Below, piece by piece: positions 19,371 through 36,653 of a stretch of DNA of 64,000 nt. Source of the DNA: Natronospirales bacterium. Lineage in GTDB: Bacteria; Pseudomonadota; Gammaproteobacteria; Natronospirales; REEB76. Within the stretch, counting starts at the first letter, position 1. The number at the start of each line of letters is the position of its first letter. Position numbers and translations under genes: made by a program. The notes under the pieces were generated by a model, which searched no databases, had not been told where the DNA came from, and saw nothing but the letters and a program-made list of their open reading frames with translations. The DNA lies in contig JAKAXB010000004.1 of the NCBI GenBank assembly GCA_021816765.1, forward strand, positions 62,001 through 126,000. Direction: 5' to 3'.

Positions 19371-20576
19371 TCAAAGCTCGATACAGTCAAATTTTGTACC
19401 GGTGCTTACGTCAGTTTCATAGTTGACGTCTTGCCTTGCAAAGCCGAACAGCTGCAGAAAATCCCGCTTGTATGCCGCGTAGTCGGTGATCTCGAAGAGG
19501 TTTTTGCCGGTGACTCTTGGCCATAATTCCTTGCAGTCCTGTTGCACGTCATCGCGCAGCTCCCGATCGTCCAGCCGTAGGCGGCCCCGTGCATCCGTTA
19601 CAGGCGGCCGGGCATCTTCCCGATAGAGATATTCGCGAAACAGGCGATTCTGCTGCTCAATTGTGTTCTCGTGCAGTCCCCTCTCTTTCATTATGCGGAA
19701 CACCAGGGAGACATACAGAGGTATGGCCGGAATGGCCGCGCTCGCCTGGGTGACGGTGGATTTCATTATCGCAACATGCGCGTTCAGGCCCTGTGCCGCG
19801 AATCGCTTGCGCAACTCCGCTGCGGTATTCTCGAGATGCTGTTTGGCGCGACCCAGAGTTCCGTGCCAGTAGATGGGCCAGGTGATCTCCGTGCCGATGT
19901 AGCTGAAAGCAACGGTTTTTGCGTTTTTAGCCAGGACTCCGGCCTTGCTTAACGCCTCTATCCAGAGGGCCCAATCCTCCCCTCCCATGACCGTGACGGT
20001 GTCGCGGATCTCCTGTTGCGTTGCGGGTTCGACGGAAACGTCAACGAGCATGTCCCGATCGGTATCAATCGTTTTCCCAGTATAGGCCGCGCCAATCGGC
20101 TTCAGCGAGGAGCGTATGATTTCTCCCGTATCCGGCAGGCGACGCACGGGGGATGCCAACGAATAGACAACAAGATCAACCTGACCACCCATTTCCCGCT
20201 TGATCAAATCTATTGCGCGGGCGCGCGCTTCATGCGAAAAGGCATCGCCATTGACGGACCTGCTCTGCAGGCCGGCCTGCCCGGCGAACTTGTCGAATGC
20301 CGCCGAGTTATACCAGCCTGCACTGCCCGCCTTGGTGTCCCTGCCGGGTTTCTCGAAGAACACGCCGAGGGTCGCAGCGCCGAACCCGAAGGCCGCCGTG
20401 ATCCGGGCGGCCAGACCGTAACCCGTGGATGCGCCGATTATCAACGCACACCTCGGTCCATCCGTGCGCGTACCCATGGCCTGCGTGGAGTTGATCTGTT
20501 CGAGCACGTTCAACTCGCATCCGATCGGATGCGCCGTTGTGCAGATGAAATGCCAAACCTTGGGCCTGATGATCAC
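19371..20576 (-). CDS. fabV: Enoyl-[ACP] reductase FabV
   Basis: 401 residues from a GTG giving the family-typical start [20 protein letters not shown]; an ATG at 20609 would add 11 residues. FabV reduces enoyl-ACP with NADH and is known for triclosan insensitivity. The nucleotide loop [11 protein letters not shown] lies at about 48-58, and the catalytic Y-X8-K is Y236/K245 in [12 protein letters not shown]. It is encoded downstream of the MipA and halogenase genes on the same strand but separated by more than 110 nt, so co-transcription is uncertain. It could serve general fatty-acid synthesis rather than the polyene pathway, which keeps its double bonds. Confidence 0.94.
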
Positions 20577-20692
20577 GAGGATTACTCTTGGCGCAGCCGG
20601 GTGGTTCATTCTAACTGACGCGCCCCAGGAAAGAGCCCGTCTTTGACCGCTTGCACGAAAGCCACGATCCAGGCCCTGTCAAACGGCACGGC

Positions 20693-21559
20693 TCAATTGG
20701 CGCTGCGCTTGAAAATCCAGGCGACCATGATGCCGAATGCCAGGCCATGGGTGCGGCTCACCAGCGGGCTGTTGAGGAAGCTCGCGCCGGCCAGGTTTGT
20801 GTAGCTGATGAATGAGCCGTACACCATATTTCCGCGGTGCAGACTACCGCCCACTGACAGCGTGTAACCGCCGTAGCCCCCGGGAGCGGTGTAGGTGGGA
20901 CGCTCCGGGTTGGCGTACTGCGGCGCCACGCCATAGATGTACTGGAAATAACCCTGACTGGCATAGAGCGCCGAGACGCCGGTCTGGATGTTGAACGCAT
21001 GATCGCCTTCCCCGATTTGATACGCGAGTTCCAGGCGCGGCGCGAATACGAAACCGCGGTGGTGCAGGCTGAGCGCGTGGGCGCTGACCGCCACGCGCAG
21101 CGGTAGCACCAAGTCCAATCGGGTACCGCCCGCGTCATTGCCCCAAACGTGATAGCGCAATGCCGGACCGGCTTCACCGATCCAGTCAAGATCCGGCATG
21201 CCCTGGCGTTCCCGGTCACGCGAGGAGCGAACCGCTACGGCGCCGGCGAAGTCCACATCCAGGGAGAGTCGGTGACCGGACAGCAATTTACCGCGCACCT
21301 GTTCGTGGTTTACGTCCAGATAGCGGCTGTGATAGACGACATAGGGGAAGGGCAGGAGCAGCGTGCTGTATTCGGCTGCGCCGGGATAATCGGGAAACCG
21401 CACGCCGCCCACTCCGACACCGATTTCAAGTTGGGATACCGCCTGCCCGGAAGCATGGGCCGCAATCGGTGCCAGCGCACACAATATGAAAAAAAGATGT
21501 GTGATACAAAAGAAAGGAGTTGAACGAACCGCATTGATCTCGAGCGGCCATGCATGCAT
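20693..21559 (-). CDS. MipA/OmpV-family outer-membrane protein
   Basis: 288 residues with an N-terminal signal sequence (hydrophobic stretch about 15-35, ending AHASG). It continues with the family pattern of amphipathic strands: GVGGVRFPDYPGAAEY near the mature N-terminus, LPFPYVVYHSRYLDV, and a C-terminal strand ending in an aromatic/basic tail. Members form outer-membrane beta-barrels or scaffolds. The start codon directly follows the halogenase stop, so the two are coupled. Its presence beside a pigment cluster may relate to outer-membrane anchoring or export; this is inference. Confidence 0.8.
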   Translation of the reverse strand: MHAWPLEINAVRSTPFFCITHLFFILCALAPIAAHASGQAVSQLEIGVGVGGVRFPDYPGAAEYSTLLLPFPYVVYHSRYLDVNHEQVRGKLLSGHRLSLDVDFAGAVAVRSSRDRERQGMPDLDWIGEAGPALRYHVWGNDAGGTRLDLVLPLRVAVSAHALSLHHRGFVFAPRLELAYQIGEGDHAFNIQTGVSALYASQGYFQYIYGVAPQYANPERPTYTAPGGYGGYTLSVGGSLHRGNMVYGSFISYTNLAGASFLNSPLVSRTHGLAFGIMVAWIFKRSAN

Positions 21560-22909
21560 CTAGGCCGGATCCACCGGCGTGGTGCCGCCGCTGAAATTCG
21601 CTTTCGCCTGCGCCAGCCGGTAACGGCGTTCGGCATTCCAGCGCCGCAGATTGCGCAGTGCGGTCCAGGCATAGATCAGGCGAAAGAACTGCAGTCGCCA
21701 GCGTACCTTGAGTGAATCGAACAAATCGCCGGCCAGCATCGAGGTCACGCCTTGTTCGACCTTCAGGATATTGTGCGGATTGCGGAAGATATGCTGCATC
21801 ACCGGCGAGTTGAAACGGTAGATGAAGAAGGCGAAGCGGCGCATGCCGGCGCGCAGGCGCTTTTCCAGGCGCTGTTGCAGCAGCGCTTCGTGTGCCGGTT
21901 CACGCAGCGCGGCGTTAACCACCATGGCGGTCTGTTCGGCTCCGCTCATGGCGAGATATACGCCCGAGGAAAATACCGGGTCCAGAAACGCAAAGGCATC
22001 GCCTACCAGCATCCACCCCGGGCCGCCGATGGTGCTGGCGTCATAGGAATAATTGCCGGTGACGCGCACCTCGTCGCCGATCAGGGTGGCCCGGCTGAGC
22101 CGTCCCCAGAGCGCGGGGTTGAGTTTGAGCGTATCAAACAGGAACTCGCGGGTGCATCCGCGACGCTGCTTCAGATAATCCGGGCGGCACACCGCGCCGA
22201 CACTCATCACTCCATCCGGCAAGGGTATCATCCACATCCAGCCGTGCTCGAAATTGTAGATACTGATATTGCCGGCATCATTGCCGGGACGGTACACGGC
22301 GCCGCGGAAATGGCCGAAGATCGCCGCACTCTGGTGTTCGGTATTTCTGCGTTTGAGCCTTTTCCGGCCGGCAAGAAAGGCATCACGGCCGCTGGCATCG
22401 AGCACATAGCGCGCTTGCACCCGGTACGTGCGCCCACCGTCAACAACGCGCACCTCGGCGACTGAATCACGCGGCCCGCGCTGCTCTACCGTCATTACCT
22501 CTGCACCCTCACGCGCATCCACGCCCTGCGCACGCGCATGTTCGAACAGCATCCGGTCAAAATCCTGCCGCCAGACCTGGAATGCGTGCGGTGGACTATT
22601 ACCCAGTGCACGTGCGAACGCGTAGACGTTGTAACCTCGTGCATTGTCAGCTTCAAAATCGGCGCCCGGCTTGTACACGCCGAGTGCGCGCACCTTGTCC
22701 AGCACACCCAGGCGCTCCAGCACCGGCAGGTTCATGGGCAGCAGCGATTCACCGATGTGAAAGCGCGGATGGCGCGCCTTTTCCAGTTGCATGACCGACC
22801 ACCCGTGCCTGGCCAGCAGCGCCGATGCCGCACTGCCGCCGGGACCGCCGCCGATCACCAGCACATCGCAGCGCTCGTCGGATACGTTAGTGGGCTGCTC
22901 GTGGCTCAT
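21560..22909 (-). CDS. Flavin-dependent halogenase-type oxidoreductase
   Basis: 449 residues from the ATG at 22909. The FAD dinucleotide motif GGGPGGSAAS lies near the N-terminus (20-29), and the GESLLP motif follows. Two hallmarks of flavin halogenases are seen: WMWMIP (224-229, WxWxIP) and FLDPVFSSG (308-316, FxDPxFSSG). Such enzymes chlorinate or brominate aromatic rings using FADH2 supplied by a reductase. The gene is divergent from the aryl polyene cluster, so aryl-ring halogenation of the polyene (as known for brominated xanthomonadins) is plausible. A non-halogenating monooxygenase or dehydrogenase relative cannot be excluded from motifs alone. Confidence 0.82.
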   Translation of the reverse strand: MSHEQPTNVSDERCDVLVIGGGPGGSAASALLARHGWSVMQLEKARHPRFHIGESLLPMNLPVLERLGVLDKVRALGVYKPGADFEADNARGYNVYAFARALGNSPPHAFQVWRQDFDRMLFEHARAQGVDAREGAEVMTVEQRGPRDSVAEVRVVDGGRTYRVQARYVLDASGRDAFLAGRKRLKRRNTEHQSAAIFGHFRGAVYRPGNDAGNISIYNFEHGWMWMIPLPDGVMSVGAVCRPDYLKQRRGCTREFLFDTLKLNPALWGRLSRATLIGDEVRVTGNYSYDASTIGGPGWMLVGDAFAFLDPVFSSGVYLAMSGAEQTAMVVNAALREPAHEALLQQRLEKRLRAGMRRFAFFIYRFNSPVMQHIFRNPHNILKVEQGVTSMLAGDLFDSLKVRWRLQFFRLIYAWTALRNLRRWNAERRYRLAQAKANFSGGTTPVDPA

Positions 22910-23119
22910 ATCCCGCCCCGAATGCAGAGCAAAGGTACAGGAAGCGCCGCCGGTTCCCACCCCGCGTACGATTCCTTCCCTCCATGAATCTGATATCGTT
23001 GTTTTGGGATAAACAGCATAAAAGGCGCATCAGCGTTCCTCTGCCCCAACCATCGGTACTACCCTAACGCAGCCCGTCAAATTCCGGATTATAGAAACCA
23101 CATATTATGGTATTACGGC

Positions 23120-23851
23120 ATGGCTCACACCATTGAACTATACTCCTGCCGGGTTACCGCCACTGACCTTCCGCGGTTGGAAACACGTTACCTTCCCTGT
23201 CTGCACACCGAAGAGCAGGCGCGTTACCGGCGGTTTACCTCTGCGCGGCGCGGACTGGAATGGCTGGCCGGGCGTGCGCTGGCATTGGAAGCGCTGCCGC
23301 TGGTTCTTGGTCAGGTCAACGAACCCGCGCTGCGCACGGGTAGCAGCGGAAATATCGTTTATCAGGATGCGCCCGTAGAACTGAGTCTGAGTCACAGCCG
23401 CGGCTTGTTTGCCATGACTATCGCGACGGTTCCAACGGGAGTGGATGTGGAACGCGTGTGCATGCGTTCCGTTGTCGCGTATGCCCGACAGGTATTTACC
23501 TCCACTGAGGCTGCGCATATTGAGCAGGTGGCCATGTCCGAACGGCCCCGCGTGTTTTGCCGGTACTGGACGCTCAAGGAAGCCGTCTGCAAAGCGGCGG
23601 GACTTTCCATCTGGGAAGGCCTGGCTGCGGCACAATTTTCTCTGCAGTCGGCACCGGCCTTCACCGGGACTGTTGAACCGCTGGCGGGTCCCTGGCGGTT
23701 CTGGTTCGCGGGCATCAAGCCTCACTGGCAACTGGCAGTCGTGGTTCACGCGGCGCTGCCCGCAGGGGCATTCACCGCCTGGCGCATCGCGCTGCCGGGT
23801 TCGCGAGAGCACTTGGAGTTGGATGCGCTCAGCAGTTTTGCAAGCGGGTAA
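23120..23851 (+). CDS. 4'-phosphopantetheinyl transferase (Sfp type)
   Basis: 243 residues. The two diagnostic motifs are GVDVE (about 107-111) and WTLKEAVCKA (about 150-159), with the acidic Mg2+ ligands present. It converts apo-ACPs to holo form using coenzyme A. As first gene of the rightward cluster it should activate the two dedicated ACPs encoded at 26.6-27.2 kb. The ATG at 23120 follows an AT-rich stretch that probably contains the cluster promoter, divergent from the halogenase gene. Confidence 0.93.
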   Translation: MAHTIELYSCRVTATDLPRLETRYLPCLHTEEQARYRRFTSARRGLEWLAGRALALEALPLVLGQVNEPALRTGSSGNIVYQDAPVELSLSHSRGLFAMTIATVPTGVDVERVCMRSVVAYARQVFTSTEAAHIEQVAMSERPRVFCRYWTLKEAVCKAAGLSIWEGLAAAQFSLQSAPAFTGTVEPLAGPWRFWFAGIKPHWQLAVVVHAALPAGAFTAWRIALPGSREHLELDALSSFASG

Positions 23852-23961
23852 CACGGAAAGGTCTCGCGTGCGCAGCCCGGGGGAAGCTGCCGGCGTAATG
23901 ACGGTCAACCGGGTTATGCCACAATGCCCCGCTGTATCATCGCAGGCGGGTGAGGAAGCAA

Positions 23962-24699
23962 GTGACTGAGGGAATGGAAGGATTTTCCATTGACCGCTGG
24001 TCTGCCTGGGCTCCGGGTGTCCAGGATCTGCCGGCGTGGCGCGCCTGGATCCGGGGGGAACGGTTCGCCGCGCCGGACCAGCCACCCGATGTGAGCTTTC
24101 TGCCGGCGCTGCTGCGCCGGCGCCTGGATCGCGTCGGCCGCATGGCCCTGCATGTGGCTTGGCATTGCGCCGAGGGCCAGGCAGACGTGCCGCTGGTGTT
24201 CGCTTCGCGCCATGGTTCTCTTGCCCGCACGGTGGAATTGCTGGACGGCCTGGCCCGGGATGAACCGCTCTCTCCCGCGGCGTTCAGCTTGTCGGTGCAC
24301 AACGGCGCGGCAGGTCTGTTTTCCATCGCCCGCGCCGACAGGAGCCCGGCCACTGCCTTGGCGGCCGGTTCCGGGACCCTGGCGGCGGCGCTGCTGGAAG
24401 GCGTCGGCATGCTGACGGAGGGCACCCGTGCGGTGCTGGTCGTTTACGCAGACGAAACCCCGCCGCCGCAATACCAGGTCTATGTGGAACCGGATCAACC
24501 GGTCTTTGCATTGGGAATGTTGCTGACCGCTGCGCATGGCAAACCACCGCGGTACCGGCTGACGCCGGTGCGGGGCGCAGTGCCGGCGCTGCGCCCGGAA
24601 GTGGCGCTCATGGAATTCCTGCTGGAAGATGCAGCCGTGGCCAGGCTGGATGCGGGTAAGCCCGGCTGGCAACTGGAGCGGGTGGGCTGCCATGCTTGA
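23962..24699 (+). CDS. apeC: Ketosynthase chain-length factor (ApeC-like)
   Basis: About 245 residues from a GTG with AGGAAG upstream. It matches the short beta-ketoacyl synthase-like family of aryl polyene clusters, with SLSVHNGAAGLFSIA replacing the active-site Cys region. No catalytic Cys is seen, so it should act as chain-length factor and pair with the condensing ketosynthase encoded at 36.7 kb, as known for ApeO/ApeC. It overlaps the PAP2 gene by 8 nt. A decayed copy of its last 70 codons lies at 25665-25874. Confidence 0.86.
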   Translation: MTEGMEGFSIDRWSAWAPGVQDLPAWRAWIRGERFAAPDQPPDVSFLPALLRRRLDRVGRMALHVAWHCAEGQADVPLVFASRHGSLARTVELLDGLARDEPLSPAAFSLSVHNGAAGLFSIARADRSPATALAAGSGTLAAALLEGVGMLTEGTRAVLVVYADETPPPQYQVYVEPDQPVFALGMLLTAAHGKPPRYRLTPVRGAVPALRPEVALMEFLLEDAAVARLDAGKPGWQLERVGCHA

Positions 24700-25456
24700 T
24701 GGAGCCGAACCATTGGACCCGCGCCGCCGGGAATCCATGCCGCCGCCGATTCAGGCGCGCGGCGGCCCGGACCCGACTGCACCCGGCCACAAGACCAGCT
24801 GGTTGCAGCAGGCTGCTTTCAGACTCAAACCCCATTGGCTGCTCAAGCTGCTGGGTACCACGGGCTACATGACATTGTTCATGCTGGGCTATTTCTGGCT
24901 GCTGAGACATCCGCTGTTTCCGGTAACGGTCATGCCATTGACCGGCCTTGACCAGCTGATCGGCTTCCAGCCCTGGAGTATCTGGCTGTACGCCTCTTTG
25001 TGGCTGTACATCTCACTGGTACCCATGCTGCTCGACATCCGATGTGAATTGGTCCCTTACCTCAGCGCGGTCACAGTCCTGAGCCTGACAGGTTTCGCGA
25101 TTTTCTTTTTCTGGCCCACGGCCATCCCCAGGCCGGATATAAATTGGGCGCGGTATCCTTGCGTTGCTTTTCTGAAATCGGTGGATGCCTCGGGGAATGC
25201 CTGTCCCTCGTTGCATGTAGCGTTTGCGGTGCTGACCGGCATGTGGTTGCACCGCCTGCTCAGGCAGATGGGCGCGCCCGTCATGCTGCGCGTGCTCAAT
25301 GCCTGCTGGTGTGCGGGGATTGTCTATTCCACTCTGGCCCTCAAACAGCATGTGGCGCTCGATATGGAGGCGGGTGCGATATTGGGTGCGGGGGTGGCGG
25401 CATTGCACCTGTTTGTTCTCCCCTGGCCGCGCATCCCGCACGGCGAGCATGAATAA
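24692..25456 (+). CDS. PAP2-superfamily membrane phosphatase
   Basis: 254 residues, about six membrane helices. PAP2 motifs of the Aur1/PAP2_3 type are CPSLHVAF (about residue 170) and KQHVALDMEAGAILG with catalytic His and Asp. It would dephosphorylate or transfer a lipid (pyro)phosphate headgroup at the inner membrane. Its start overlaps the chain-length-factor gene (CATGCTTGATGG). PAP2 is not a standard member of this position in aryl polyene clusters. The gene sits exactly between the intact and decayed copies of the chain-length factor, which suggests insertion here. Confidence 0.85.
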   Translation: MLDGAEPLDPRRRESMPPPIQARGGPDPTAPGHKTSWLQQAAFRLKPHWLLKLLGTTGYMTLFMLGYFWLLRHPLFPVTVMPLTGLDQLIGFQPWSIWLYASLWLYISLVPMLLDIRCELVPYLSAVTVLSLTGFAIFFFWPTAIPRPDINWARYPCVAFLKSVDASGNACPSLHVAFAVLTGMWLHRLLRQMGAPVMLRVLNACWCAGIVYSTLALKQHVALDMEAGAILGAGVAALHLFVLPWPRIPHGEHE

Positions 25457-25664
25457 GGCGGATCGCCGCTCGCGCGGCCCGAAGCCCGGCACAAACCCCA
25501 CAAATACACGTTATCTCTTGCGATGCACCAAAATTGGACATTAAAATGTCGCGCCCGTGATCGAGCAGGCGTATGCCCCGGTCAATTCATGAAAAACGGG
25601 TGTTCGGTTTGAATTAAGAAAGCCAAGGGGATTCAGCCCGACTGTGTGACTACACTCCCTATTT
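25457..25664. other. AT-richer spacer after the PAP2 gene
   Basis: About 200 nt of unusually AT-rich sequence within an otherwise gapless operon. No gene seen. It may carry a secondary promoter for the downstream acyltransferase-ACP genes or be the scar of the rearrangement. Confidence 0.4.
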
Positions 25665-25874
25665 ATGGAACCGCGTGCACCGACCTGCGCATTGTGAGTG
25701 CGGCTGAGCGCTTCGCATGACAAACACTCCGGGTGCCGGCCGGCGCCGGGAAGCGCGGCCCCGAAGGCGCACGCGGAGGTGGCGCTCCTGGTCCTGGGGG
25801 TGGAAGATGCGCCTGTGGCGGACGCGGCGGCTGAGCCCGGCTGGCAGCGGGAGCGGGTGGGCAGACATGCTTAA
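25665..25874 (+). pseudogene. Decayed 3' end of a second chain-length-factor gene
   Basis: Read in the frame ending at TAA 25872-25874, this stretch matches the C-terminus of the intact factor at 23962-24699 along its whole length. MEPRAPTCAL-stop-VRLSASHDK aligns with VEPDQPVFALGMLLTAAHGK, and the end AEPGWQRERVGRHA aligns with GKPGWQLERVGCHA. EVAL and VEDAPVA also align with EVAL and LEDAAVA. A TGA replaces the GGA glycine codon. The stop overlaps the acyltransferase ATG just as the intact copy overlaps the PAP2 ATG. There is no start and no 5' part. Confidence 0.85.
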
Positions 25875-26661
25875 GAAGTTGGCCTATGGGTACCGTGCCT
25901 TGGGTACCGGGTTTTGTTTCGCCGGTTTTGGGGTGGGCTGCGTGGCGGTGGGCCTTACGCTGCTGCCCGTCATTCTGCTGTGGCCCGGCAACGCGGCTGT
26001 ACGCCGGCGACGGGTGCGCCGTCTGGTGAGCTTGGCCTTCAGGGTGCTGCTGGCGGCCATCCGCGGGCTGGGACTCGGGCGGGTGGAGGTGGAAGGCCGG
26101 GAATGGCTGAAGCACGCTGCCGGCCGGCTGGTGCTGGCCACCCATCCGAATTATCTGGATGCCGTGGTGCTGCTTTCCCTTTTGCCCATGGCGGATTGTG
26201 TGATAAAAAGCGGCCTGTGGCGCAACCCGTTCACGCGCGCATTCGTGATAGCGGCTGGCTACATAAGTAATAGTAATGAGGATCCGGTGGCGGCGATCGA
26301 AACCTGCATCCGGGCGGTACACGGCGGCCAGACGCTGGTGCTGTTCCCGGAAGGTACCCGCTCGACGCCAGGGGAACCGCTGCGCTTCCGGCGCGGCGCG
26401 GCACAAATCGCGGTGCGCGGCGATCTCGAAATCCTGCCGGTGGTCATGCACTGTTCACCGCCCGCGCTGCTCAAGACCACCAAGTGGTACCAGGTGCCGG
26501 AGCGCGCCTGGGTGTTGCATGTGAAAATCTTTCCACCGCGCTGCGTGAGCGATTTCGTGCCGCAGGTGTCCTTGCCGCCGGGAATAGCGGTGCGCCGCGC
26601 CACCCGCGCCCTGCAAAATTTCTTTCAGGAGCAGATCACACAGTATGAACACGCTTATTGA
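25867..26661 (+). CDS. Lysophospholipid acyltransferase-family protein
   Basis: 264 residues from the ATG at 25867; the longer open frame starting at 25717 runs through the pseudogene in a wrong frame. It has one or two N-terminal membrane helices, then the PlsC-type acyltransferase motifs H93-X4-D98 in THPNYLDAVV and FPEGTRSTPG. In aryl polyene clusters a PlsC-like enzyme sits at this position and probably acylates a glycerol- or sugar-lipid anchor for the polyene. It overlaps the first ACP gene by 17 nt. Confidence 0.88.
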   Translation: MLKKLAYGYRALGTGFCFAGFGVGCVAVGLTLLPVILLWPGNAAVRRRRVRRLVSLAFRVLLAAIRGLGLGRVEVEGREWLKHAAGRLVLATHPNYLDAVVLLSLLPMADCVIKSGLWRNPFTRAFVIAAGYISNSNEDPVAAIETCIRAVHGGQTLVLFPEGTRSTPGEPLRFRRGAAQIAVRGDLEILPVVMHCSPPALLKTTKWYQVPERAWVLHVKIFPPRCVSDFVPQVSLPPGIAVRRATRALQNFFQEQITQYEHAY

Positions 26662-26905
26662 CGAGCTGAAGCAGCTCATCATCAACGCACTGGATCTGGA
26701 GGACGTGACTCCGGCGGACATTGATCCGCACGCGCCCCTGTTCGGCGACGGCCTGGGACTCGATTCCATTGACGCCCTGGAACTGGGAGTCGCTGTCCAG
26801 AAACGTTATCACATCACCCTGGATTCCACCTCCGCTGAAACCCGCCAGCATTTTTATTCAGTGGCGAATCTGGCGAAATTCATTTCGGCGCAGCAAGCAT
26901 CCTGA
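26645..26905 (+). CDS. apeE: Acyl carrier protein 1 of the aryl polyene system
   Basis: 86 residues. The phosphopantetheine site is S41 in GLGLDSIDALELG. It is acidic and helical as expected for an ACP, slightly longer than the second carrier. It should hold starter or growing polyene acyl chains after activation by the PPTase encoded at 23.1 kb. It lies between the acyltransferase and second ACP genes. Confidence 0.93.
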   Translation: MNTLIDELKQLIINALDLEDVTPADIDPHAPLFGDGLGLDSIDALELGVAVQKRYHITLDSTSAETRQHFYSVANLAKFISAQQAS

Positions 26906-26916
26906 GAGACTTATCC

Positions 26917-27168
26917 ATGGATACCGAAGATGTTTTTCAGAAACTCAAGAGCACCCTGGTGGAACAGTTCGAACTGGACCCGGCGAAGATTGTGCCCGGA
27001 GCTCGACTGTATGAGGACCTGGATCTGGACAGCATTGATGCGGTGGATCTGGTGATCAAGCTGCAGGAGATCACCGGCCGCAAGGTGAGCCCGGAGGATT
27101 TTAAAGGCGTGCGCACAGTGGGGGATATCCAGCACGTCATAGAGAAGCTGATCGCCGCTCCGCAATGA
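26917..27168 (+). CDS. apeF: Acyl carrier protein 2 of the aryl polyene system
   Basis: 83 residues with pantetheine Ser at about S39 in EDLDLDSIDAVDLV. Two non-identical ACPs in tandem are a hallmark of aryl polyene clusters and may separate priming from elongation. Its stop overlaps the next gene (ATGA). Confidence 0.93.
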   Translation: MDTEDVFQKLKSTLVEQFELDPAKIVPGARLYEDLDLDSIDAVDLVIKLQEITGRKVSPEDFKGVRTVGDIQHVIEKLIAAPQ

Positions 27169-27743
27169 CGCGTTCGGTCGCACCTGTGCTGATTGTCGCC
27201 GGGCTGCTCGCCTATCCGCTGGTTATTTATTTCGCTGCCGGCCGTGTGGCACCCAGGATACTCATGGCGGGCGCGCTGACGCTGTTGGCGCTGCGCGTGC
27301 TGTTCAAGGCCTGGCGAAAATCCCGGCGCCCGTGGAGCCGGCTTTGTCTTGCCGCCGTCCTGCTTGCGGGCGCCATCGCGGCAGGGTTCAGCCACGGCCT
27401 TAGCCTGGAGCGAGTGCGGCTGTATCCGGTGGCAATTGATGCGGCTTTTTTCCTGGTGTTTTTTATCTCCTTGTTCACGCGCGCGCCGCTGGTGGAGCGC
27501 ATCGCCCGCGCCAGCGACCCTGAGCTTGGTCCCGATGCCATCCTTTATACCCGGCGCGTCACCTGGGTGTGGAGTGGCGTGCTGCTGGCCAACACCCTGA
27601 TCGCGCTGTATACGGCGCTGCACGCGTCCATGGCCGCTTGGACCCTGTACAACGGATTGCTGTCCTACCTGCTGATCGGGACGGTATTCCTGGCGGAATA
27701 CCTGATTCGTCGTCGGGTACGCCGCATCCGGACGCATCCATGA
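27165..27743 (+). CDS. COG4648-type membrane protein of aryl polyene cluster
   Basis: 192 residues with about five or six predicted membrane helices and no catalytic motif visible. Position (between ACP 2 and the acyl-ACP ligase) and the motif-like segment LFTRAPLVERIARASDPEL match the conserved uncharacterised membrane protein of aryl polyene clusters. The role is unknown; an inner-membrane platform or a transporter component is possible. It overlaps neighbours on both sides by 4 nt. Confidence 0.8.
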   Translation: MTRSVAPVLIVAGLLAYPLVIYFAAGRVAPRILMAGALTLLALRVLFKAWRKSRRPWSRLCLAAVLLAGAIAAGFSHGLSLERVRLYPVAIDAAFFLVFFISLFTRAPLVERIARASDPELGPDAILYTRRVTWVWSGVLLANTLIALYTALHASMAAWTLYNGLLSYLLIGTVFLAEYLIRRRVRRIRTHP

Positions 27744-29131
27744 ATGCACCGGATCAAGTCAATTCGTTTGCCGATCAGAGACACAAGGTTTCCAACACTC
27801 AACAAAAAGTGATCGCCCGCGGTGAGAGCGGCGACCTGCTGGCCGGCGAATTCCAGCGACGCGTGGCCGGCGTCGCCGGCTGTTTGTTGCAACGTCCCGA
27901 GCAGCGCTGGGCCCTGGTGTGTGATGACACCCCGTGGTTCGCGGCGGGTTTCCTGGCACTGGCTCAGGCCCGCAAGACCCTGATCCTCCCGCAGACAGGC
28001 GGACCGGAGAGCGCAGCGGAGGCGCAAGCGGCAGCGGTGCTCACGGACCAGCCGGCGCGGTTTCCGTCATTTGCCAGCGTGGATGTGACTGCCGTACCTG
28101 ATGAAGCAGGCGCGCCGGTCAGTACGGACCTGGACGATGCACTCCCCGTCGAGCTCTACACCTCAGGTTCCACCGGTCGGCCCAAGCGCGTGGACAAACT
28201 ACTTGGGCAATTGCGTGTCGAGGTGACGGCGCTGGAAGCCCGCTGGGGACAAGCGCTCGGCGACGCGCTGGTGCTTGGCAGCGTGCCGCATCATCATTTA
28301 TACGGGTTGCTGTTCCGCGTTTTGTGGCCCCTGTGGGCGGGCCGCCCGTTGTATGCGCCTGTTTGTGCGCAAGCGCATGAATTCAAGGCGGCAGCCAGGC
28401 GGTTCGGACGTTGTCTGATAGTCAGCAGTCCGGCCTTCCTGACCCGGGTTACGGATTTCGCCATGCTGCAACCGCCGGATGCATTCGCGGCCCTGTTCAG
28501 TTCCGGCGCGCCGCTGCCGGCCGCCACGGCCGCGAAAATCGCAGGCGAAATGGGACGCGCGGCCATCGAGGTGTACGGCAGCACCGAAACCGGCGGCATC
28601 GCCTGGCGCACCTGGGAACCCGATAAGGGCCAAACTGCATGGCAACCCTTTGCGGAGGTGGAGACGGCCTTGCTGGGGGCCACTCCCGGACTTTTGCGAG
28701 TGCGCTCACCCTGGACCTGGAAGGCCGATTGGATGGACACCGGTGATCTGGCGCAAATGCTGCCGCAGCGGCGTTTCCTGCTCTGCGGCCGGGCCGACAG
28801 CGTGCTGAAAGTGGAAGACAAGCGTGTCTCGCTTGCGGAAATGGAGCAGCGTCTTGTTGCCCATGGGCTCGTGAGTGAAGCACGCCTGCTGGTACTGAAG
28901 GACAAACGCAGTTCGGTGGGTGCGGTAGTGGTGCTGAGCGCCGCTGGGCGCCGCCAACTGGGGCAGACCGGAACGCGGGGCGTGCGCAAGGCGCTCAGGG
29001 ACGGGCTGCGCGCCTGGTATGACCCGGTGCTGGTGCCGCGCAAATGGCGCTTCCTGGAAGCCATGCCGGACAATGCCATGGGCAAGATCGAACAGGCGGG
29101 ACTGCAAGCGCTGTTCACGGAGCGGCGTTGA
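27740..29131 (+). CDS. apeH: Acyl/aryl adenylate-forming ligase (ApeH-like)
   Basis: 463 residues. AMP-binding motifs are YTSGSTGRPKRVDK, YGSTETGGIAWR, DTGDL and a C-terminal GRADSVLKVEDKRVSL block with the adenylation Lys near NAMGKIEQ. It should activate the aromatic starter acid produced by the ammonia lyase and load it on an ACP. It begins in an ATGA overlap with the membrane-protein gene and ends in a TGATG overlap with the dehydratase. Confidence 0.9.
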   Translation: MNAPDQVNSFADQRHKVSNTQQKVIARGESGDLLAGEFQRRVAGVAGCLLQRPEQRWALVCDDTPWFAAGFLALAQARKTLILPQTGGPESAAEAQAAAVLTDQPARFPSFASVDVTAVPDEAGAPVSTDLDDALPVELYTSGSTGRPKRVDKLLGQLRVEVTALEARWGQALGDALVLGSVPHHHLYGLLFRVLWPLWAGRPLYAPVCAQAHEFKAAARRFGRCLIVSSPAFLTRVTDFAMLQPPDAFAALFSSGAPLPAATAAKIAGEMGRAAIEVYGSTETGGIAWRTWEPDKGQTAWQPFAEVETALLGATPGLLRVRSPWTWKADWMDTGDLAQMLPQRRFLLCGRADSVLKVEDKRVSLAEMEQRLVAHGLVSEARLLVLKDKRSSVGAVVVLSAAGRRQLGQTGTRGVRKALRDGLRAWYDPVLVPRKWRFLEAMPDNAMGKIEQAGLQALFTERR

Positions 29132-29478
29132 TGGAACTCCCGGCGGTGCTGCATCGGCACGTGGCGGGCGACAGCGCCCGCGTGGAACTGGACGTGCATG
29201 CCGATCTCAAGTGGTTCGCGGGCCATTTCCCCGGACACCCCATCCTGCCCGGCGTGGTACAGCTCGCCTGGGCGGTGCATTTTTCCCGGGAGATCTTCGG
29301 CTACGGTCCCGGCGTGAGCGTCCTGGAGCAGCTCAAGTTCAAGCGACCCATCGGGCCCGGCCGTCACGTCACCCTGCTGCTGGTGCGGCGCCCCGCTGAC
29401 ATGGCTGTGAGTTTCGAGTACCGTGATGCGCACACCAGCTTCGCCTCAGGCAGCTTGAGGTTTAAGCCATCCGCATGA
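29131..29478 (+). CDS. apeI: Hot-dog dehydratase 1 (ApeI-like, FabZ family)
   Basis: 115 residues with the FabZ-type active-site block WFAGHFPGHPILPGVVQL (His at about 32 and 36). It dehydrates 3-hydroxyacyl-ACP during polyene growth. Known aryl polyene dehydratases work as a heterodimer with a second subunit, here probably the protein encoded at 37.8 kb. It starts at the TGATG junction with the ligase gene; upstream in-frame codons belong to the ligase shadow. Confidence 0.9.
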   Translation: MELPAVLHRHVAGDSARVELDVHADLKWFAGHFPGHPILPGVVQLAWAVHFSREIFGYGPGVSVLEQLKFKRPIGPGRHVTLLLVRRPADMAVSFEYRDAHTSFASGSLRFKPSA

Positions 29479-31220
29479 ACTTCAAGGCCTGTGCCGTCAT
29501 CCCCGTTTACAACCATCCTGCCTGTCTTGCGCAGATTGCCGCGCGCTTGCGTGCCTGCGGCCTGGCGTGCATCTTCGTGGACGATGGCAGTGATGTGACC
29601 ACCAGGACGGTTCTGCGCAACATCGCTTCATCTGAAAACGGCATGGAATGCCTGACACTGCCAGACAACCAGGGCAAGGGTGCCGCGGTGCTCGCCGGGC
29701 TTGAGCGCGCCGCCCAGCGTGGCTACAGCCATGCCTTGCAAGTGGACGCCGACGGCCAGCATGATCTGGACGACGTGCCGGCGCTGCTCAAGCTGGCCGA
29801 GACCCATTTTGAAAAACTCATATCCGGCCTGCCGGTATTCGACAGTTCGGCGCCGCGCGCGCGCTTTTACGGGCGCTACCTCACCCATATTCTGGTGTGG
29901 ATCGAAACCTTGTCGCTGCGATTGCGGGATTCCATGTGCGGCTTCCGCGTCTATCCACTCGCACCCACGCTGGCACTGGCACACAGTGTGAAACTCGGGC
30001 GGCGCATGCAATTCGATTCCGAGGTGATGGTGCGATTGTACTGGTGCGGCGTGGAAAGCGTGTTCCTGCCCACGCGCGTGCGGTATCCAAAAGACGGTGT
30101 CTCCCATTTCCGGTACTGCACCGATAACCTGCGCATGGTCCGGATGCACCTGCGCCTGTTCCTCGGCATGCTGCCGCGTATCCCCATGCTGTTGCGCCGC
30201 AAACTTGCACAGCGCCGGGCGCGTCACTGGGCGCAATTGCACGAGCGCGGCAGCGTATTGGGTATCCGCATCCTCGGCGCGGTATATGCCCGGTTCGGCC
30301 GCCGCGCCAGTCACGTGCTGCTGATGCCCGTGGTCATTTATTTCCTTATCACCCATCCTGTGGCGCGGCGCGCTTCGCGCCAGTTTCTGGCGGCGGTGCA
30401 GCCTTATGCGGGCGCTCTCGCCACAAGCGACGCGCGTCCCACCTGGCGCAACAGTTTCCGGCATTTCTGGCGCTTCGCCGTCGCCAATCTGGACATGCTG
30501 GTGGCCTGGCGCAGGCCGGGGCAGGTGACGGTGCATTTTCCGGCACGCGATCAACTGGTGACTGCCGTGAACCGCAGTCAGGGGGTGCTGCTCATCAGCG
30601 CGCACCTGGGCAATCTGGAAGTCACGCGCGCGCTGGCTACCCGGGAGCTGGGCCTGAAAGTGAACGCCCTCGTGTACACCCGGCATGCGTACAAATCCAA
30701 TACGGTGCTGGATGAAGCCAGCGAGGCTTACAACCTGCGGCTGATCCAGGTGCAGGAACTGGGACCCGATACGGCGGTGATGCTGCGGGAGAAAGTGTCC
30801 GCCGGCGAGCTGGTGGCGATCGTGGGCGACCGCACGCCGGTGTCCACCGCGAGCCCGGTGGTGCAAGCGGATTTTCTCGGCCGGCCGGCGCCGTTCGCGG
30901 TGGGGCCGTACGTGCTGGCGCACGTGCTGGAATGCCCGGTGTATCTTTTTTTCTGTATCGCCGAAGGCGGCGGTTACACTATCCACTTGGAGCCCTTTGC
31001 GGAACGCATCCATTTGCCGCGCCGCGGCAGCGAGGCGGCCCTGCAGGAATGGGCGGGTCGTTACGCCGCCCGCCTGGCGGATTACGCCGCGCGTTTTCCG
31101 CTGCAGTGGTACAACTTCTATGATTTCTGGGCGGACCGTGGTCCGGCCGCAACCCGCCCGCGCGGCGTCAGTGACTCCAAAATGGATACCCATGGACAAG
31201 GCTCGCAAACACTCGCCTGA
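29475..31220 (+). CDS. Fused glycosyltransferase 2 / LpxL-like acyltransferase
   Basis: 581 residues with two enzymes. Residues about 1-240 are a GT-A family 2 domain (AVIPVYNHPACLAQI, FVDDGSD, QVDADGQHD), with membrane-associated basic helices near 225-300. Residues about 315-570 form a lipid A acyltransferase-like domain with HLGNLE (H-X4-D/E type) and a GDRTPVS loop. This fusion is typical of aryl polyene clusters and is thought to build the lipid/sugar anchor. It overlaps the ammonia lyase gene by 29 nt. Confidence 0.9.
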   Translation: MNFKACAVIPVYNHPACLAQIAARLRACGLACIFVDDGSDVTTRTVLRNIASSENGMECLTLPDNQGKGAAVLAGLERAAQRGYSHALQVDADGQHDLDDVPALLKLAETHFEKLISGLPVFDSSAPRARFYGRYLTHILVWIETLSLRLRDSMCGFRVYPLAPTLALAHSVKLGRRMQFDSEVMVRLYWCGVESVFLPTRVRYPKDGVSHFRYCTDNLRMVRMHLRLFLGMLPRIPMLLRRKLAQRRARHWAQLHERGSVLGIRILGAVYARFGRRASHVLLMPVVIYFLITHPVARRASRQFLAAVQPYAGALATSDARPTWRNSFRHFWRFAVANLDMLVAWRRPGQVTVHFPARDQLVTAVNRSQGVLLISAHLGNLEVTRALATRELGLKVNALVYTRHAYKSNTVLDEASEAYNLRLIQVQELGPDTAVMLREKVSAGELVAIVGDRTPVSTASPVVQADFLGRPAPFAVGPYVLAHVLECPVYLFFCIAEGGGYTIHLEPFAERIHLPRRGSEAALQEWAGRYAARLADYAARFPLQWYNFYDFWADRGPAATRPRGVSDSKMDTHGQGSQTLA

Positions 31221-32766
31221 ACCCGGCGCCCTGACGGTGGGCGGACGGCCACTGAGCATCGCCGATGTCTGCGCCGTGGCGCGCGGCGCGTCTCCTGGCT
31301 TGAACGCCGCACCCGCATTCCGCCAGCGCATTGACGCCGGTGCGCGCATGCTTGCCGGGTACATCGCCGCGGGCCGGCCGATATACGGCGTGAGCACCGG
31401 CTACGGCGATTCCTGCACCGTCAGTATTCCGCCACAGGCGCTGGAAGAACTGCCGGTGCACCTCATTCATTATCACGGCTGCGGTCTGGGCCGGCATTTC
31501 GATGAGCCCGCTGCCGCCGCTGTCCTGATGACGCGCTTGGCGTCACTGGCCGCCGGATTTTCCGGTGTGCGCTTCGAAGTGTTGCAGCAACTGCAGGCAT
31601 TTTTGCAGCGGCGCATCATTCCGCTGATACCCGAGGAAGGCTCGGTGGGTGCCAGCGGCGATCTCACGCCGCTGTCTTACGTGGCCGCCGCGCTCATGGG
31701 TGAACGGCAGGTGTATTTCCGCGGACGCGTGTGTACCGCCGCGGAAGCGCTCGGGGAAACCGGCCTCCAACCTCTGACGTTCCGGCCCAAGGAAGGCCTG
31801 GCGCTCATGAACGGCACCTCGGTCATGACGGCGCTGGCTTGTCTCGCCTGGGAGCGGGCCGAATACCTGACGCGCCTGGCAAGCCGCATCACCGCCATGG
31901 CGAGCCTCGCCATGGACGGCAACCGGGAGCATTTCGCGCCGGGCCTGTTCGCCGCCAAACCCCATGCGGGCCAGCGGCAGGTGGCGGCGTGGATTTACGC
32001 CGATCTGGCCGTGGGCCGCAGGGAGCGGAACAGCGGCGTGCAGGACCGCTACTCCATCCGCTGCGCACCTCACGTGATCGGGGTGCTGGCTGACGCGCTC
32101 GGCTGGATGCGGCGCGACATCGAGACCGAACTCAACAGTGCCAACGACAATCCCATCATTGATCCGGACAGCGGCGCCGTCTATCACGGCGGACATTTCT
32201 ACGGCGGGCACATCGCTTTCGTGGCCGATTGCCTGAAGACCGCCGTCGCCAACATCGCCGACCTGCTGGACCGGCAACTGGCGCTGCTGGTGGACAGCCG
32301 CTTCAGCAACGGCCTGCCGCGCAATCTTTCCGGTGCCCGCGGTGAACGCGCCCATCTCAACCACGGTTTCAAGGCGGTACAGATCGCGGTCTCCGCCTGG
32401 ACCGCGGAGGCGCTCAAACTCACCATGCCGGCAAGCGTGTTCTCGCGCTCCACCGAATGCCACAACCAGGACAAGGTGAGCATGGGCACCATCGCCGCCC
32501 GCGACGCCATCCGGGTGCTGGAACTCACCGAGCAGGTGGCCGCCGCCTGTCTGGCCGCGGTTTGCCAGGCGCTGGAAATCCGCCGGCGCCTGCTGTCGCT
32601 ACCCGCCGGCCAGCCGGGAGAATCCATCCGTGCCACGCAGCAGGAGGTGCTGACGCTGTGCCCGTTCGTGGAGGAGGACCGGCCGCTGGAAAACGAGTTG
32701 CGCAGCCTGTGTGCGGCCATTCAGCAGCGCCGCTGGCCGCTGTATGGGGAGGAAGCGCCAGGATGA
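31192..32766 (+). CDS. MIO-type aromatic amino acid ammonia lyase
   Basis: 524 residues of the HAL/PAL/TAL family. The prosthetic-group triad A154-S155-G156 lies in GSVGASGDLTPL, the catalytic Tyr is in IYGVSTGYGD (about Y65), and later signature blocks NSANDNPIID, QDRYSIRCAPHVIG and QDKVSMGT are intact. It should deaminate tyrosine or phenylalanine to a cinnamate-type starter. The selectivity pair (SH in HAL, HL in TAL, FL in PAL) reads Y94-H95 here, so the substrate is uncertain. The ATG at 31192 is chosen by length and the position of the first conserved strand. Confidence 0.88.
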   Translation: MDKARKHSPEPGALTVGGRPLSIADVCAVARGASPGLNAAPAFRQRIDAGARMLAGYIAAGRPIYGVSTGYGDSCTVSIPPQALEELPVHLIHYHGCGLGRHFDEPAAAAVLMTRLASLAAGFSGVRFEVLQQLQAFLQRRIIPLIPEEGSVGASGDLTPLSYVAAALMGERQVYFRGRVCTAAEALGETGLQPLTFRPKEGLALMNGTSVMTALACLAWERAEYLTRLASRITAMASLAMDGNREHFAPGLFAAKPHAGQRQVAAWIYADLAVGRRERNSGVQDRYSIRCAPHVIGVLADALGWMRRDIETELNSANDNPIIDPDSGAVYHGGHFYGGHIAFVADCLKTAVANIADLLDRQLALLVDSRFSNGLPRNLSGARGERAHLNHGFKAVQIAVSAWTAEALKLTMPASVFSRSTECHNQDKVSMGTIAARDAIRVLELTEQVAAACLAAVCQALEIRRRLLSLPAGQPGESIRATQQEVLTLCPFVEEDRPLENELRSLCAAIQQRRWPLYGEEAPG

Positions 32767-33182
32767 AAAAAGCGCTGCTGTGCGCCGAAGTGGAGATGGA
32801 AGTCCCATTCCAGGACGTGGACGCCATGCAGGTAGTCTGGCACGGAAATTATTTCCGCTACTTCGAGGCGGCCCGCAGCCAGCTCCTGCGCATGATTGAT
32901 TACGATTATGCCGAGATGCGCGCCTCGAATTACCTGTGGCCCATCATCGAGACCCGCGTGCGTTTCGTACAGGCGGTGCAGTATCGCCAGCAAATTGTGG
33001 TGAGCGCCACGCTCATGGAATGGGAAAACCGTCTCAGGATTGATTACCTGATCCGCGACGCGCGCACCGGCGCGCGGCTTACCACCGGCCACACCATCCA
33101 GTGCGCGGTGGATGCCCAAACGCACGAACTGCAACTGGTCAGTCCCGCGCCGCTCCTGGAACGTCTCAAGGCCTATCTATGA
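32763..33182 (+). CDS. Acyl-CoA/ACP thioesterase (4HBT fold)
   Basis: 139 residues with the YbgC/4HBT start FQDVDAMQVVWHGNYFRYFEAAR (the catalytic Asp is in DVDAM). It is expected to release or proofread acyl chains from the ACPs. Its gene overlaps both the lyase stop and the LolA-like start by 4 nt, typical of the aryl polyene operon. Confidence 0.9.
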   Translation: MKKALLCAEVEMEVPFQDVDAMQVVWHGNYFRYFEAARSQLLRMIDYDYAEMRASNYLWPIIETRVRFVQAVQYRQQIVVSATLMEWENRLRIDYLIRDARTGARLTTGHTIQCAVDAQTHELQLVSPAPLLERLKAYL

Positions 33183-33772
33183 GCCGCATGCAACCCACGG
33201 CTGCCTGTGTATATGCTGCAATCCTGCTGCTCGCCGCCGCTTTCCCGGCAGCGGCGGCCACAGGCGCCGCCGCCACTCTGCCCAAGGCGCCGGAATCCTT
33301 CCGTGCCCGCTTCATCGAGACCCGCACGCTGCCCGGCTTCGATCAGCCGCTGGTATCCCGCGGCAACGTGACTTTCAGCCGCACCCGCGGCGTCATCTGG
33401 GAAGTGACCGCGCCCTATCACTATGTTTTCAGGATGGGTCCCGCCGACGCCGAAGAGCAGATGCCCGACGGCTCGGTGCGGCATCTGGACGCGGAACACG
33501 CTCCCTGGCTTGCCGTGGTGCGGCATATTTTCACCAGCGCCCTGACGGGCAACATTTCCGAGCTGAGACGTTATTTTCACGTGCAGGTGACGGTGCTCCG
33601 GGTCGGCCGCCGCATCGAACTCACCCCCAAGCCCGGTCCCATGGCCAAGGCCATCAACCATATCAGCGTCACCGAGGCGGGCACGCCCCGGTCCCTGCGC
33701 ATGGATGAAGCTTCCGGCGGTCGCATCGTCATCCGTTTCCTGGACGCAAAAGCCGCTGCGGAGACGCCGTGA
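33179..33772 (+). CDS. LolA-like periplasmic carrier
   Basis: 197 residues with an N-terminal signal peptide (hydrophobic about 8-28, AAFPAAAATG). The mature part resembles LolA-type single-domain lipoprotein carriers: FRARFIETRTLPGFDQPLVSRG, VTFSRTRGVIWEVTAPYHYVF. It probably carries the lipid-anchored polyene between inner and outer membrane with the RND exporter encoded next. It overlaps the exporter start (GTGA). Confidence 0.87.
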   Translation: MSRMQPTAACVYAAILLLAAAFPAAAATGAAATLPKAPESFRARFIETRTLPGFDQPLVSRGNVTFSRTRGVIWEVTAPYHYVFRMGPADAEEQMPDGSVRHLDAEHAPWLAVVRHIFTSALTGNISELRRYFHVQVTVLRVGRRIELTPKPGPMAKAINHISVTEAGTPRSLRMDEASGGRIVIRFLDAKAAAETP

Positions 33773-36081
33773 GTGCACGGGCCGCGACGCTCCTCAAACC
33801 GCTGATCTGGATTGTTGTGCTGACACTGCTGTGCCTGTTCGCCGCCCTGCGGCTGAATCTGCGGCAACCGGTGGATACCAATCTTCTGGATCTGTTGCCG
33901 GCGGCGCAGCAATCACCGCTGCTGGACGCGGCCACGGAGCGCACCCAGGGAGCCTTCTTGCGGGAGTTGCTGCTGGTGGTAAGCGCCGCAGATTACTCGC
34001 AGGCGCGGCGCGGCGCAAAGGCCGCGCAAACCGCGCTCGCCGCGGCGGGCCTGCCGCTCGCGGATCCGGCGCGGAGCGTCCAGGCATTGATCGGCCTGTA
34101 TCGCCGGCATCGTTACGCTTTCCTGACCACCGCGGACCGGCAGCAGCTCAATAAAAATCCGGTCAGCGCCTTCACCAATGACGTGGCCGGTGAGTTTGCC
34201 AATCCGGCCGGCATGGTAGGGGTATTCGGCACCGATCCCGGCGGTTATCTCGGCCGCTTTCTCATGGGTCTGCCGCAGCCTTATGCAAATTTCACGCCTG
34301 ACGGCGCGTTCCTGTCGGCGCAGCGCAACGGGAAAAATTACTTTCTGTTGCGCGCCGCGCTTCCGGAAGCGGCCCTGGGGGAGCGGGGTGCGGCACAGGC
34401 AGCGGGTGCGGTGGCGGCGGCACGCGCCGCGGTTCAGCGGAGTTGCCCGAATTGCACGCTGCTGGCCACCGGCGCGGCGCTGTTCTCAGCCGCGGCCCAG
34501 AACGAAGCCCGGCAGGAAGTGTTCTGGCTCACCGCGGTCTCCATGCTGTTCATCGTGCTGCTGATCCTGCTGGTGTTCCGCAGTCTGCGGCCGCTGATCC
34601 TGGGCGTGCTGTCCGTGGGCGCAGGCGTGCTGGCGGGCGCCGCCGCGGTGGTGATCGGTTTCGGTTCGGTGCACATCCTGACGCTGGTGTGCGGCACCAC
34701 GCTGCTGGGGATCGCCATTGATTATGCCTTTTTGTATTTCGCCGAACACTGGTTCGGCGGCGGTCTGGCGCAACACACGCTCAAATCGGTACTGCCGGGT
34801 CTGACCATGGGGCTCATCACCGGCGTCATTGCCTTCGCCTTCCTGCTGCTGGCCGGTTTTCCGGCGCTCACGCAGATCGCCGTATTTTCCGTGGCCGGGC
34901 TGGTGATGTCGTACGCCACGGTGGTGTTGCTGTTTCCGTTGGCACTGCGCAGACGCCCCGCGGTCCGGTTTGCGACGCTGTTGCAATTCCCGCAACGGCT
35001 GCTGGTGCTGGCCTGCCGGCGCACCCGCTGGCGTTACCTGGTGCCGCTGATCCTGCTTATGTTGTCCATCCCGGGGTGGTTGCGGTTGCACACCAGCGAC
35101 GCTGTGCGCGAGTTGCAGAATTTTCCCAAGCCCCTGCTCAACGCCGATCAGGATGTTCGCACGCTGCTGGGACAGACACCGCCGCCGGGTTTCTTTCTGA
35201 TTGAAGGCGCGAATATCCAGCAGGCTTTGCAACGGGAAGAGACCTTGTTCCAAATCACGGCCGCCGCATTTCCCGGCGCGGTGGCATTGGGACTGTCACG
35301 CTTCCTGCCTTCCGAATCGAGGCAGCAGGTGAACCTGGATACCTGGGCGACGGTCTATCGTGATCCCGCGGCACTCCAGCGGGCGTTCGCACACATCGGC
35401 CTGCCTCCCGAATACGTGAATACCCTGGAAGCCGGCTGGAAACACAATCCGCACACCCCGCTGACGTCGCAGGCTCTTTTGGCGGCGGAACCGGACCTGG
35501 GCCAGTTCGTGGTACGCGCGGGTAACCACCTGGCGCTGATCGCCACCCTGATGGCGTCACTCAGCACAGTTCCGCAATTGCAAAACGCCGCGGCACAGGT
35601 ACCCGGCGTGAGTTTCGTGGCGCCGTTGCAGCGCCTCACCGACACGTTCCGGCAGATCCGCTGGCGCGCCACCTGGCTGGTGGTGGCGGGGTATGTGCTG
35701 ATCTCGCTGCTGCTCATCTGGCGGTACGGACGGCGCGATACCCTGCGCATGTTGTATCCGCCGCTCTTGTCCCTGGCGGTGACACTCGGAGCGCTTGGCT
35801 GGTTGCAGGTGCCGGTGAACATTTTCGTGATCGTCGGCCTGATCCTGGTGCTGGGAGTGGGCCGGGATTACACCGTGTTCCTGCGGGAAGGCGCCCGCTC
35901 GCCTGCCACGGCCCTGGGGGTGACACTGGCGGCGCTCGCCACCCTGTGCTCATTCGGCATGCTGGCCTTCAGTGCCATTCCCGTGCTGCATGCCTTTGGT
36001 CTCGCCACGCTTATCGGTATCCTGGCGAGCTATCTGAGCGCGCCCCTTTCCATTGCGCCGCACACAAGGGAAGCGGCATGA
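33769..36081 (+). CDS. RND/MMPL-family exporter
   Basis: 770 residues from GTG, with about 12 predicted membrane helices arranged as TM1 + periplasmic loop + TM2-6 + TM7 + loop + TM8-12. It is shorter than drug RND pumps and lacks the extended porter domains, as in MMPL-type pigment or lipid exporters. Located between LolA-like and DUF3261 lipoprotein genes, it would extract the finished aryl polyene lipid from the inner membrane. Confidence 0.9.
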   Translation: MSARAATLLKPLIWIVVLTLLCLFAALRLNLRQPVDTNLLDLLPAAQQSPLLDAATERTQGAFLRELLLVVSAADYSQARRGAKAAQTALAAAGLPLADPARSVQALIGLYRRHRYAFLTTADRQQLNKNPVSAFTNDVAGEFANPAGMVGVFGTDPGGYLGRFLMGLPQPYANFTPDGAFLSAQRNGKNYFLLRAALPEAALGERGAAQAAGAVAAARAAVQRSCPNCTLLATGAALFSAAAQNEARQEVFWLTAVSMLFIVLLILLVFRSLRPLILGVLSVGAGVLAGAAAVVIGFGSVHILTLVCGTTLLGIAIDYAFLYFAEHWFGGGLAQHTLKSVLPGLTMGLITGVIAFAFLLLAGFPALTQIAVFSVAGLVMSYATVVLLFPLALRRRPAVRFATLLQFPQRLLVLACRRTRWRYLVPLILLMLSIPGWLRLHTSDAVRELQNFPKPLLNADQDVRTLLGQTPPPGFFLIEGANIQQALQREETLFQITAAAFPGAVALGLSRFLPSESRQQVNLDTWATVYRDPAALQRAFAHIGLPPEYVNTLEAGWKHNPHTPLTSQALLAAEPDLGQFVVRAGNHLALIATLMASLSTVPQLQNAAAQVPGVSFVAPLQRLTDTFRQIRWRATWLVVAGYVLISLLLIWRYGRRDTLRMLYPPLLSLAVTLGALGWLQVPVNIFVIVGLILVLGVGRDYTVFLREGARSPATALGVTLAALATLCSFGMLAFSAIPVLHAFGLATLIGILASYLSAPLSIAPHTREAA

Positions 36082-36653
36082 GCATGCAGGCCGGGCCAGC
36101 CGCTTTGGCGCTGAGCATGCTGTTCGCGGCCGGCTGTGCCAGTGTGCCTCCGGCCGGTTGCGTGGCTTTCGGCCGTGGGGGGCAGCTCTGTCTGCTGGCG
36201 CCGGCGCAATTGCCGGCGCTGGACGGCGTCCACCTGGTCACCATTGATCACGACGGCACGCAGCAGACGTTCATCGGCCAATTGCACATTGATGCACATA
36301 TCATCCGCCTGGCAGGCAGCAGTCTCCTCGGTCCCGGCCTGTTTACCGTCAGCTACGACGGCCACACACTGCACAGCGCGCCGGCCAACGGACCACAGCG
36401 CGCCGACATGCTCATCGTCATGCTGGAACTGGTGGCGGCCCGGCAACGGGTATTGCAACCGGCATTGCGCGGTATGCGGCTGACACAAACCACGGCCGCG
36501 GGCGGCAAGCGGGTGCGTGAACTCTTCGCGGGGGGTCGCCTGGTGGCGCATATCGAGATAAGCGCCGGGCCGCTGAGGCAGGCCACCATCCGCCTCGACA
36601 TTCCGCCGGCGCATCTGTCCGTATTGATGCAACCGCTGGCATCACGGCCCTGA
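36078..36653 (+). CDS. DUF3261-type outer-membrane lipoprotein
   Basis: 191 residues. Lipobox LFAAGC gives an acylated Cys at about residue 20; AAGGGAAG precedes the ATG. It matches by order and appearance the small lipoprotein of aryl polyene clusters that would receive the pigment at the outer membrane (LolB-like role, inference). It starts in an ATGA overlap with the exporter and ends in TGATG with the ketosynthase. Confidence 0.82.
   Translation: MSMQAGPAALALSMLFAAGCASVPPAGCVAFGRGGQLCLLAPAQLPALDGVHLVTIDHDGTQQTFIGQLHIDAHIIRLAGSSLLGPGLFTVSYDGHTLHSAPANGPQRADMLIVMLELVAARQRVLQPALRGMRLTQTTAAGGKRVRELFAGGRLVAHIEISAGPLRQATIRLDIPPAHLSVLMQPLASRP

Follow-up and report, generated by a model that had tools for sequence, protein, structure and literature searches.

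Gene content around the chain-length factor

The window, meaning the whole stretch of 64,000 nucleotides that was analysed, contains an aryl polyene cluster at positions 19371-37831. The features of this cluster that concern us here are the following.

23120 to 23851, plus strand: phosphopantetheinyl transferase gene (ACPS Pfam match), between the FAD gene and PAP2 and adjoining the intact factor
23950 to 24699, plus strand: intact chain-length factor gene, predicted ApeC-type (PF13723), probably a relocated copy
24692 to 25456, plus strand: PAP2-superfamily membrane phosphatase gene (PF01569)
25517 to 25548, plus strand: promoter-like element CTTGC-N18-AYTARAATG, directly upstream of the remnant region and the sole match in the window
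25549 to 25866, plus strand: putative leader, proposed from a comparison of distances, holding the remnant and the ribosome-binding region of the acyltransferase gene
25665 to 25874, plus strand: decayed 3' end of an ApeC-type chain-length factor gene, probably the old copy, identified by alignment, genome search and orthologous remnants
25867 to 26661, plus strand: ApeD-type acyltransferase gene (PF01553), its start overlapping the final codons of the remnant

The gene at 23950-24699 is predicted to encode an ApeC-type chain-length factor, based on its matches to PF13723 (208 bits, E 1.7e-61) and to ApeC in 6QSP chain B (E 3.3e-19). In Acinetobacter baumannii, ApeC is the half-size chain-length factor of the ketosynthase ApeO-ApeC (PMC8358021). 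Like the ApeC of the solved ApeO-ApeC pair of Xenorhabdus doucetiae (6QSP), the intact copy in the window is half-size, belongs to PF13723 and lies in an aryl polyene cluster. In contrast to these systems, the window keeps a second, decayed copy at the usual site before the acyltransferase gene, and the working copy is found upstream of PAP2. The dN/dS of the intact factor against the related genome G008 is 0.25, indicating purifying selection; that of the acyltransferase is 0.15.

The acyltransferase and two ACPs that place the factor in an aryl polyene cluster were identified by Pfam. The remaining cluster genes were read from the list of open reading frames; their order is conserved in relatives and matches Table 1 of PMC8253772. 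In the apeA-R cluster of E. coli CFT073, apeC is located directly before the acyltransferase gene apeD (PMC8253772). The two clusters share a backbone encoding the factor, a lysophospholipid acyltransferase, two carrier proteins, a membrane protein, a ligase, a dehydratase, a glycosyltransferase/acyltransferase, a thioesterase, LolA, an RND transporter and a ketosynthase. They differ in that PAP2 and the remnant lie between the intact factor of the window and its acyltransferase, and in that the window cluster additionally has lyase, FAD-dependent and PAP2 genes.

The comparison covered 11 further members of the family, of which ten belong to the genus of the window and one to a different genus. 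Nine of these have the cluster, and the factor was not found in the other two (G001 and G007). The phosphopantetheinyl transferase gene has an equivalent position in genomes G008 and G010 and is missing from this spot in G009 and in G250, a genome from another family. Its placement here on the plus strand is seen only in the clade of the window; five further relatives (G002 to G006) have a transferase relative (32-44%) either nearby on the opposite strand or on another contig.

The start of the acyltransferase gene is conserved among relatives. No stop interrupts its reading frame within the remnant as far back as an ATG at 25717, and automatic annotation may thus call a protein of 314 residues (25717-26661). 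We take 25867 as the likely start, since G008 has a stop in the upstream extension. It should be noted that the start of PAP2 is also uncertain (24692-24770). The ATG at 24692, which overlaps the stop of the factor, may have come from an acyltransferase start by copying; G008 has no ATG matching 24692, and its PAP2 starts further in.

Homology and lesions of the remnant

The sequence-only reading of this locus described the segment before the acyltransferase gene as the end of a second chain-length factor, with one TGA and no 5' end, and proposed aligning 24480-24699 with 25665-25874. The alignment is significant and bears out the description. In brief, 214 bases are aligned between 25665-25874 and 24484-24698 at a DNA identity of about 67-71%, and the score of 131 compares with a maximum of 30 among approximately 1,900 random segments of the window under identical scoring. 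With a second scoring scheme the remnant and intact copy scored 84 versus 24. The PF13723-type homology is far above these chance controls. The remnant can be read in one frame corresponding to residues 179-249, approximately, of the intact factor, with a single TGA at intact residue 189 and the 5' part missing. An independent six-frame search of the genome recovered the remnant with an E value of 2e-9, covering residues 175-249 with one TGA. As was also claimed, both factor copies end in CATGCTT, which overlaps the ATG of the following gene.

A longer remnant is found at the equivalent site in the sister species G008, covering residues 144-249, approximately, at 47%, with one TGA and one TAA (E 2e-15). 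In G010, likewise a sister species, the final 22 codons of the remnant are located at a contig end, before the acyltransferase gene. The stops are found at residue 189 in the window, at residues 166 and 189/190 in G008 and at residue 237 in G010, and these different positions indicate that they arose separately. The gene order of G008 is that of the window: the FAD gene on the minus strand, phosphopantetheinyl transferase, factor, PAP2, remnant and acyltransferase. The cluster of G010 is split over contigs: the transferase and the beginning of the factor are on one, and the acyltransferase, preceded by the last part of the remnant, is on another; no PAP2 was seen in G010. The rearranged state is common to at least three species of the window lineage. 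Homology to the factor is here combined with disabling lesions, namely a 5' deletion and stops that differ between the three species. We therefore consider it likely that 25665-25874 is a pseudogene fragment marking the ancestral site of the aryl polyene chain-length factor, an assessment made jointly with the history of duplication, relocation and decay given below.

Where the remnant can be aligned between the two usable sequences, those of the window and G008, identity is 66%, close to the 61% of synonymous sites and the 65% of one spacer, and the remnant thus looks neutral. Its last 35 bases or so are well conserved. Together with the location of the segment, which follows a conserved promoter-like element and precedes the acyltransferase gene, this conservation would agree with the segment being a regulatory RNA or functional leader that resembles the factor incidentally or as a by-product. 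We regard this as highly improbable, because the likeness is strong and collinear, change outside the end with the acyltransferase start proceeds at about the synonymous rate, and the segment differs greatly in length between species.

Gene order in relatives and the promoter-like element

In four relatives, G009, G002, G003 and G011, PAP2 is followed by an intact factor and the acyltransferase, with no remnant. The same order is probable for G005, where it runs across a contig break. In genomes G004 and G006, PAP2 is located away from the factor, indicating that PAP2 tends to accompany these clusters even outside the factor operon. The PAP2 relatives of these two genomes are approximately 65-71% identical, and that of G004 lies near an enoyl-reductase-like gene and a ketosynthase gene. 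The overlap CATGCT between factor and acyltransferase is common to G009 and G006.

These gene orders, and apeC-apeD of E. coli (PMC8253772), support the earlier proposal that the ancestral order was factor followed by acyltransferase. The same proposal held that a block carrying a diverged factor and PAP2 was inserted or replaced the old factor. It was right in that the remnant represents the old factor, but not with regard to PAP2. The proposed check was whether relatives lack PAP2 at this site; in G009, G002, G003 and G011 it immediately precedes the factor. As the remnant occupies the factor's ancestral site and PAP2 is already upstream in those four genomes, no insertion of PAP2 is needed. 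PAP2 appears to be resident here, and its status as an insert is not supported.

The element CTTGC-N18-AYTARAATG matches the window once, against 0 matches expected, and occurs once each in G008, G009, G002, G003 and G005; in every case the factor or the remnant comes directly after it. Because the motif was drawn up by visual inspection of the very regions in question, its uniqueness in the window is a check against chance rather than an independent prediction. In the window it resembles a sigma-70 promoter (TTGCGA-18-TAAAAT), and judging from this likeness we suggest that it has promoter activity. That the window retains the motif in front of the remnant indicates that the remnant holds the old position of the factor.

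In G009 the first intact gene after the motif is the factor, which begins 76 nt beyond the motif's end. In the window (319 nt) and G008 (436 nt) the corresponding gene is the acyltransferase. Compared with the leader of G009, the stretch between motif and remnant gave a suggestive match in the window (P 0.003) and no significant homology in G008 (P 0.31). A tiny open reading frame, MKNGCSV, follows the promoter-like element at 25589-25612. The open reading frame MKTGIWLEI before the factor in G009 resembles it; the form is not kept in G008.

The promoter-like element persists, as do the last codons of the remnant, whose sequence coincides in part with the ribosome-binding region and start of the acyltransferase gene. 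The fragment thus probably lives on as the leader of the acyltransferase operon. One could go further and suppose that the decayed factor was kept as a regulatory leader, which would uncouple the acyltransferase from translation of the factor while retaining the old promoter. We find this quite unlikely; if true, the factor and the remaining pathway would be separately controlled units.

Origin of the intact copy and history of the locus

At the DNA level, the tails of both remnants, from the window and G008, are nearest to the intact factor of their own clade. They scored 86 and 93 against the factor of the window, 56 and 76 against that of G008, 10 and 15 against that of G250, and at most 27 against the resident factors of other family members. 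This fits a duplication inside the lineage of the cluster and speaks against a foreign origin of the intact factor with respect to the remnant. The CATGCTT tail of the intact factor also points to an origin beside an acyltransferase start, as G009 and G006 have CATGCT where these two genes overlap. The 25-35 nt that follow the intact factor in the window and G008 weakly echo the acyltransferase start in register (P 0.0005-0.006). The echo after the new factor is not significant by free, unanchored local alignment, and none is significant after the factor of G250. A tree of chain-length factors, which the sequence-only reading had called for, was built; it leaves the short decayed remnants unplaced, and a grouping of the remnants with the resident factors of other species is not rejected (p-AU 0.13).

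G250 is the closest genome outside the clade with respect to the acyltransferase (78%), factor (61%), PAP2 (72%) and FAD gene (76%). Its RpoB is only 74% identical, versus 88-93% inside the genus, a comparison from which G002 was excluded, and the acyltransferases of other members of the family are 53-57% identical to that of the window. In the acyltransferase tree, the window groups with G008, G010 and G250 (support 100/99). Judged from these sequence identities, the aryl polyene cluster has most likely moved between families, in either direction. In G250 an SDR-FAD-factor-PAP2 unit is separate from the acyltransferase operon, and the factor is found only upstream of PAP2. We searched for a vestige of the factor before the acyltransferase of G250 and found none above chance (P 0.26).

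This arrangement could suggest that a foreign block of FAD, factor and PAP2 genes, for example from the G250 lineage, entered ahead of a resident promoter-factor-acyltransferase operon, whose own factor then decayed. The PAP2 of the window is closer to that of G250 (72%) than to that of G009 (66%), and genomes G004 and G006 make an ancestor without an adjacent PAP2 conceivable. We nevertheless hold such an insertion to be unlikely. In G009, G002, G003 and G011 the factor already has PAP2 as its immediate upstream neighbour, the remnant is nearer to the supposed incoming factor than to any resident factor of the genus, and the acyltransferase is likewise nearest to its G250 counterpart, so that the closeness of PAP2 is not special.

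The direction of copying could also have been the reverse, the factor upstream of PAP2 being the older and a partial, never functional copy being placed later before the acyltransferase. The order in G250 could be read this way, as could the finding that the remnant is closer to the factor of the window than the factor of G250 is. This direction is very unlikely, given that the remnant follows the promoter-like element found ahead of the factor elsewhere in the genus and retains the ancestral overlap with the acyltransferase. Moreover, the longer remnant of G008 indicates progressive loss, and factor-acyltransferase is the order in other relatives and in apeC-apeD of E. coli (PMC8253772).

Based on these observations, we think that the clade's own factor was probably duplicated and relocated and that its original decayed, rather than being replaced by a foreign gene. 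The ancestral order would have been PAP2, promoter, factor, acyltransferase and carrier proteins. A second copy of the factor would then have been placed upstream of PAP2, beside or jointly with the phosphopantetheinyl transferase gene and adjoining the divergent FAD gene, by duplication rather than by another route of copying. With two factors present, the downstream copy would have been free to decay, and the upstream copy would have retained its function under purifying selection. The old copy would have lost its 5' part and gained stops separately in each species. The promoter-like element and the end overlapping the acyltransferase would have persisted, the fragment probably as a leader. 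Some observations run counter to this history: the trees do not place the remnants, the echo of the acyltransferase start is weak, and G250 differs. The FAD-factor-PAP2 order of G250 fits a relocation that preceded the separation of G250, whereas at the DNA level the remnant is nearer to the factor of the window than the factor of G250 is. To reconcile the two, gene conversion or fast change in G250 is needed.

The event is real and represents ordinary gene turnover. With other cases in which a gene was relocated by duplication and its original decayed, the window shares an intact duplicate, a decayed original and species-specific lesions; nothing fundamental differs, and the detail particular to the window is the promoter-like element kept before the remnant. 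The earlier suggestion that polyene chain length may have changed finds no support in our analysis. The locus corrects the tempting reading of an inserted PAP2 and cautions against deducing new chemistry from a remnant. It offers a clear example, drawn from comparison of genomes, of rearrangement in aryl polyene clusters, which form a very widespread family in bacteria, by a route in which a gene is copied into a new operon, the original is lost and the promoter-like element stays.
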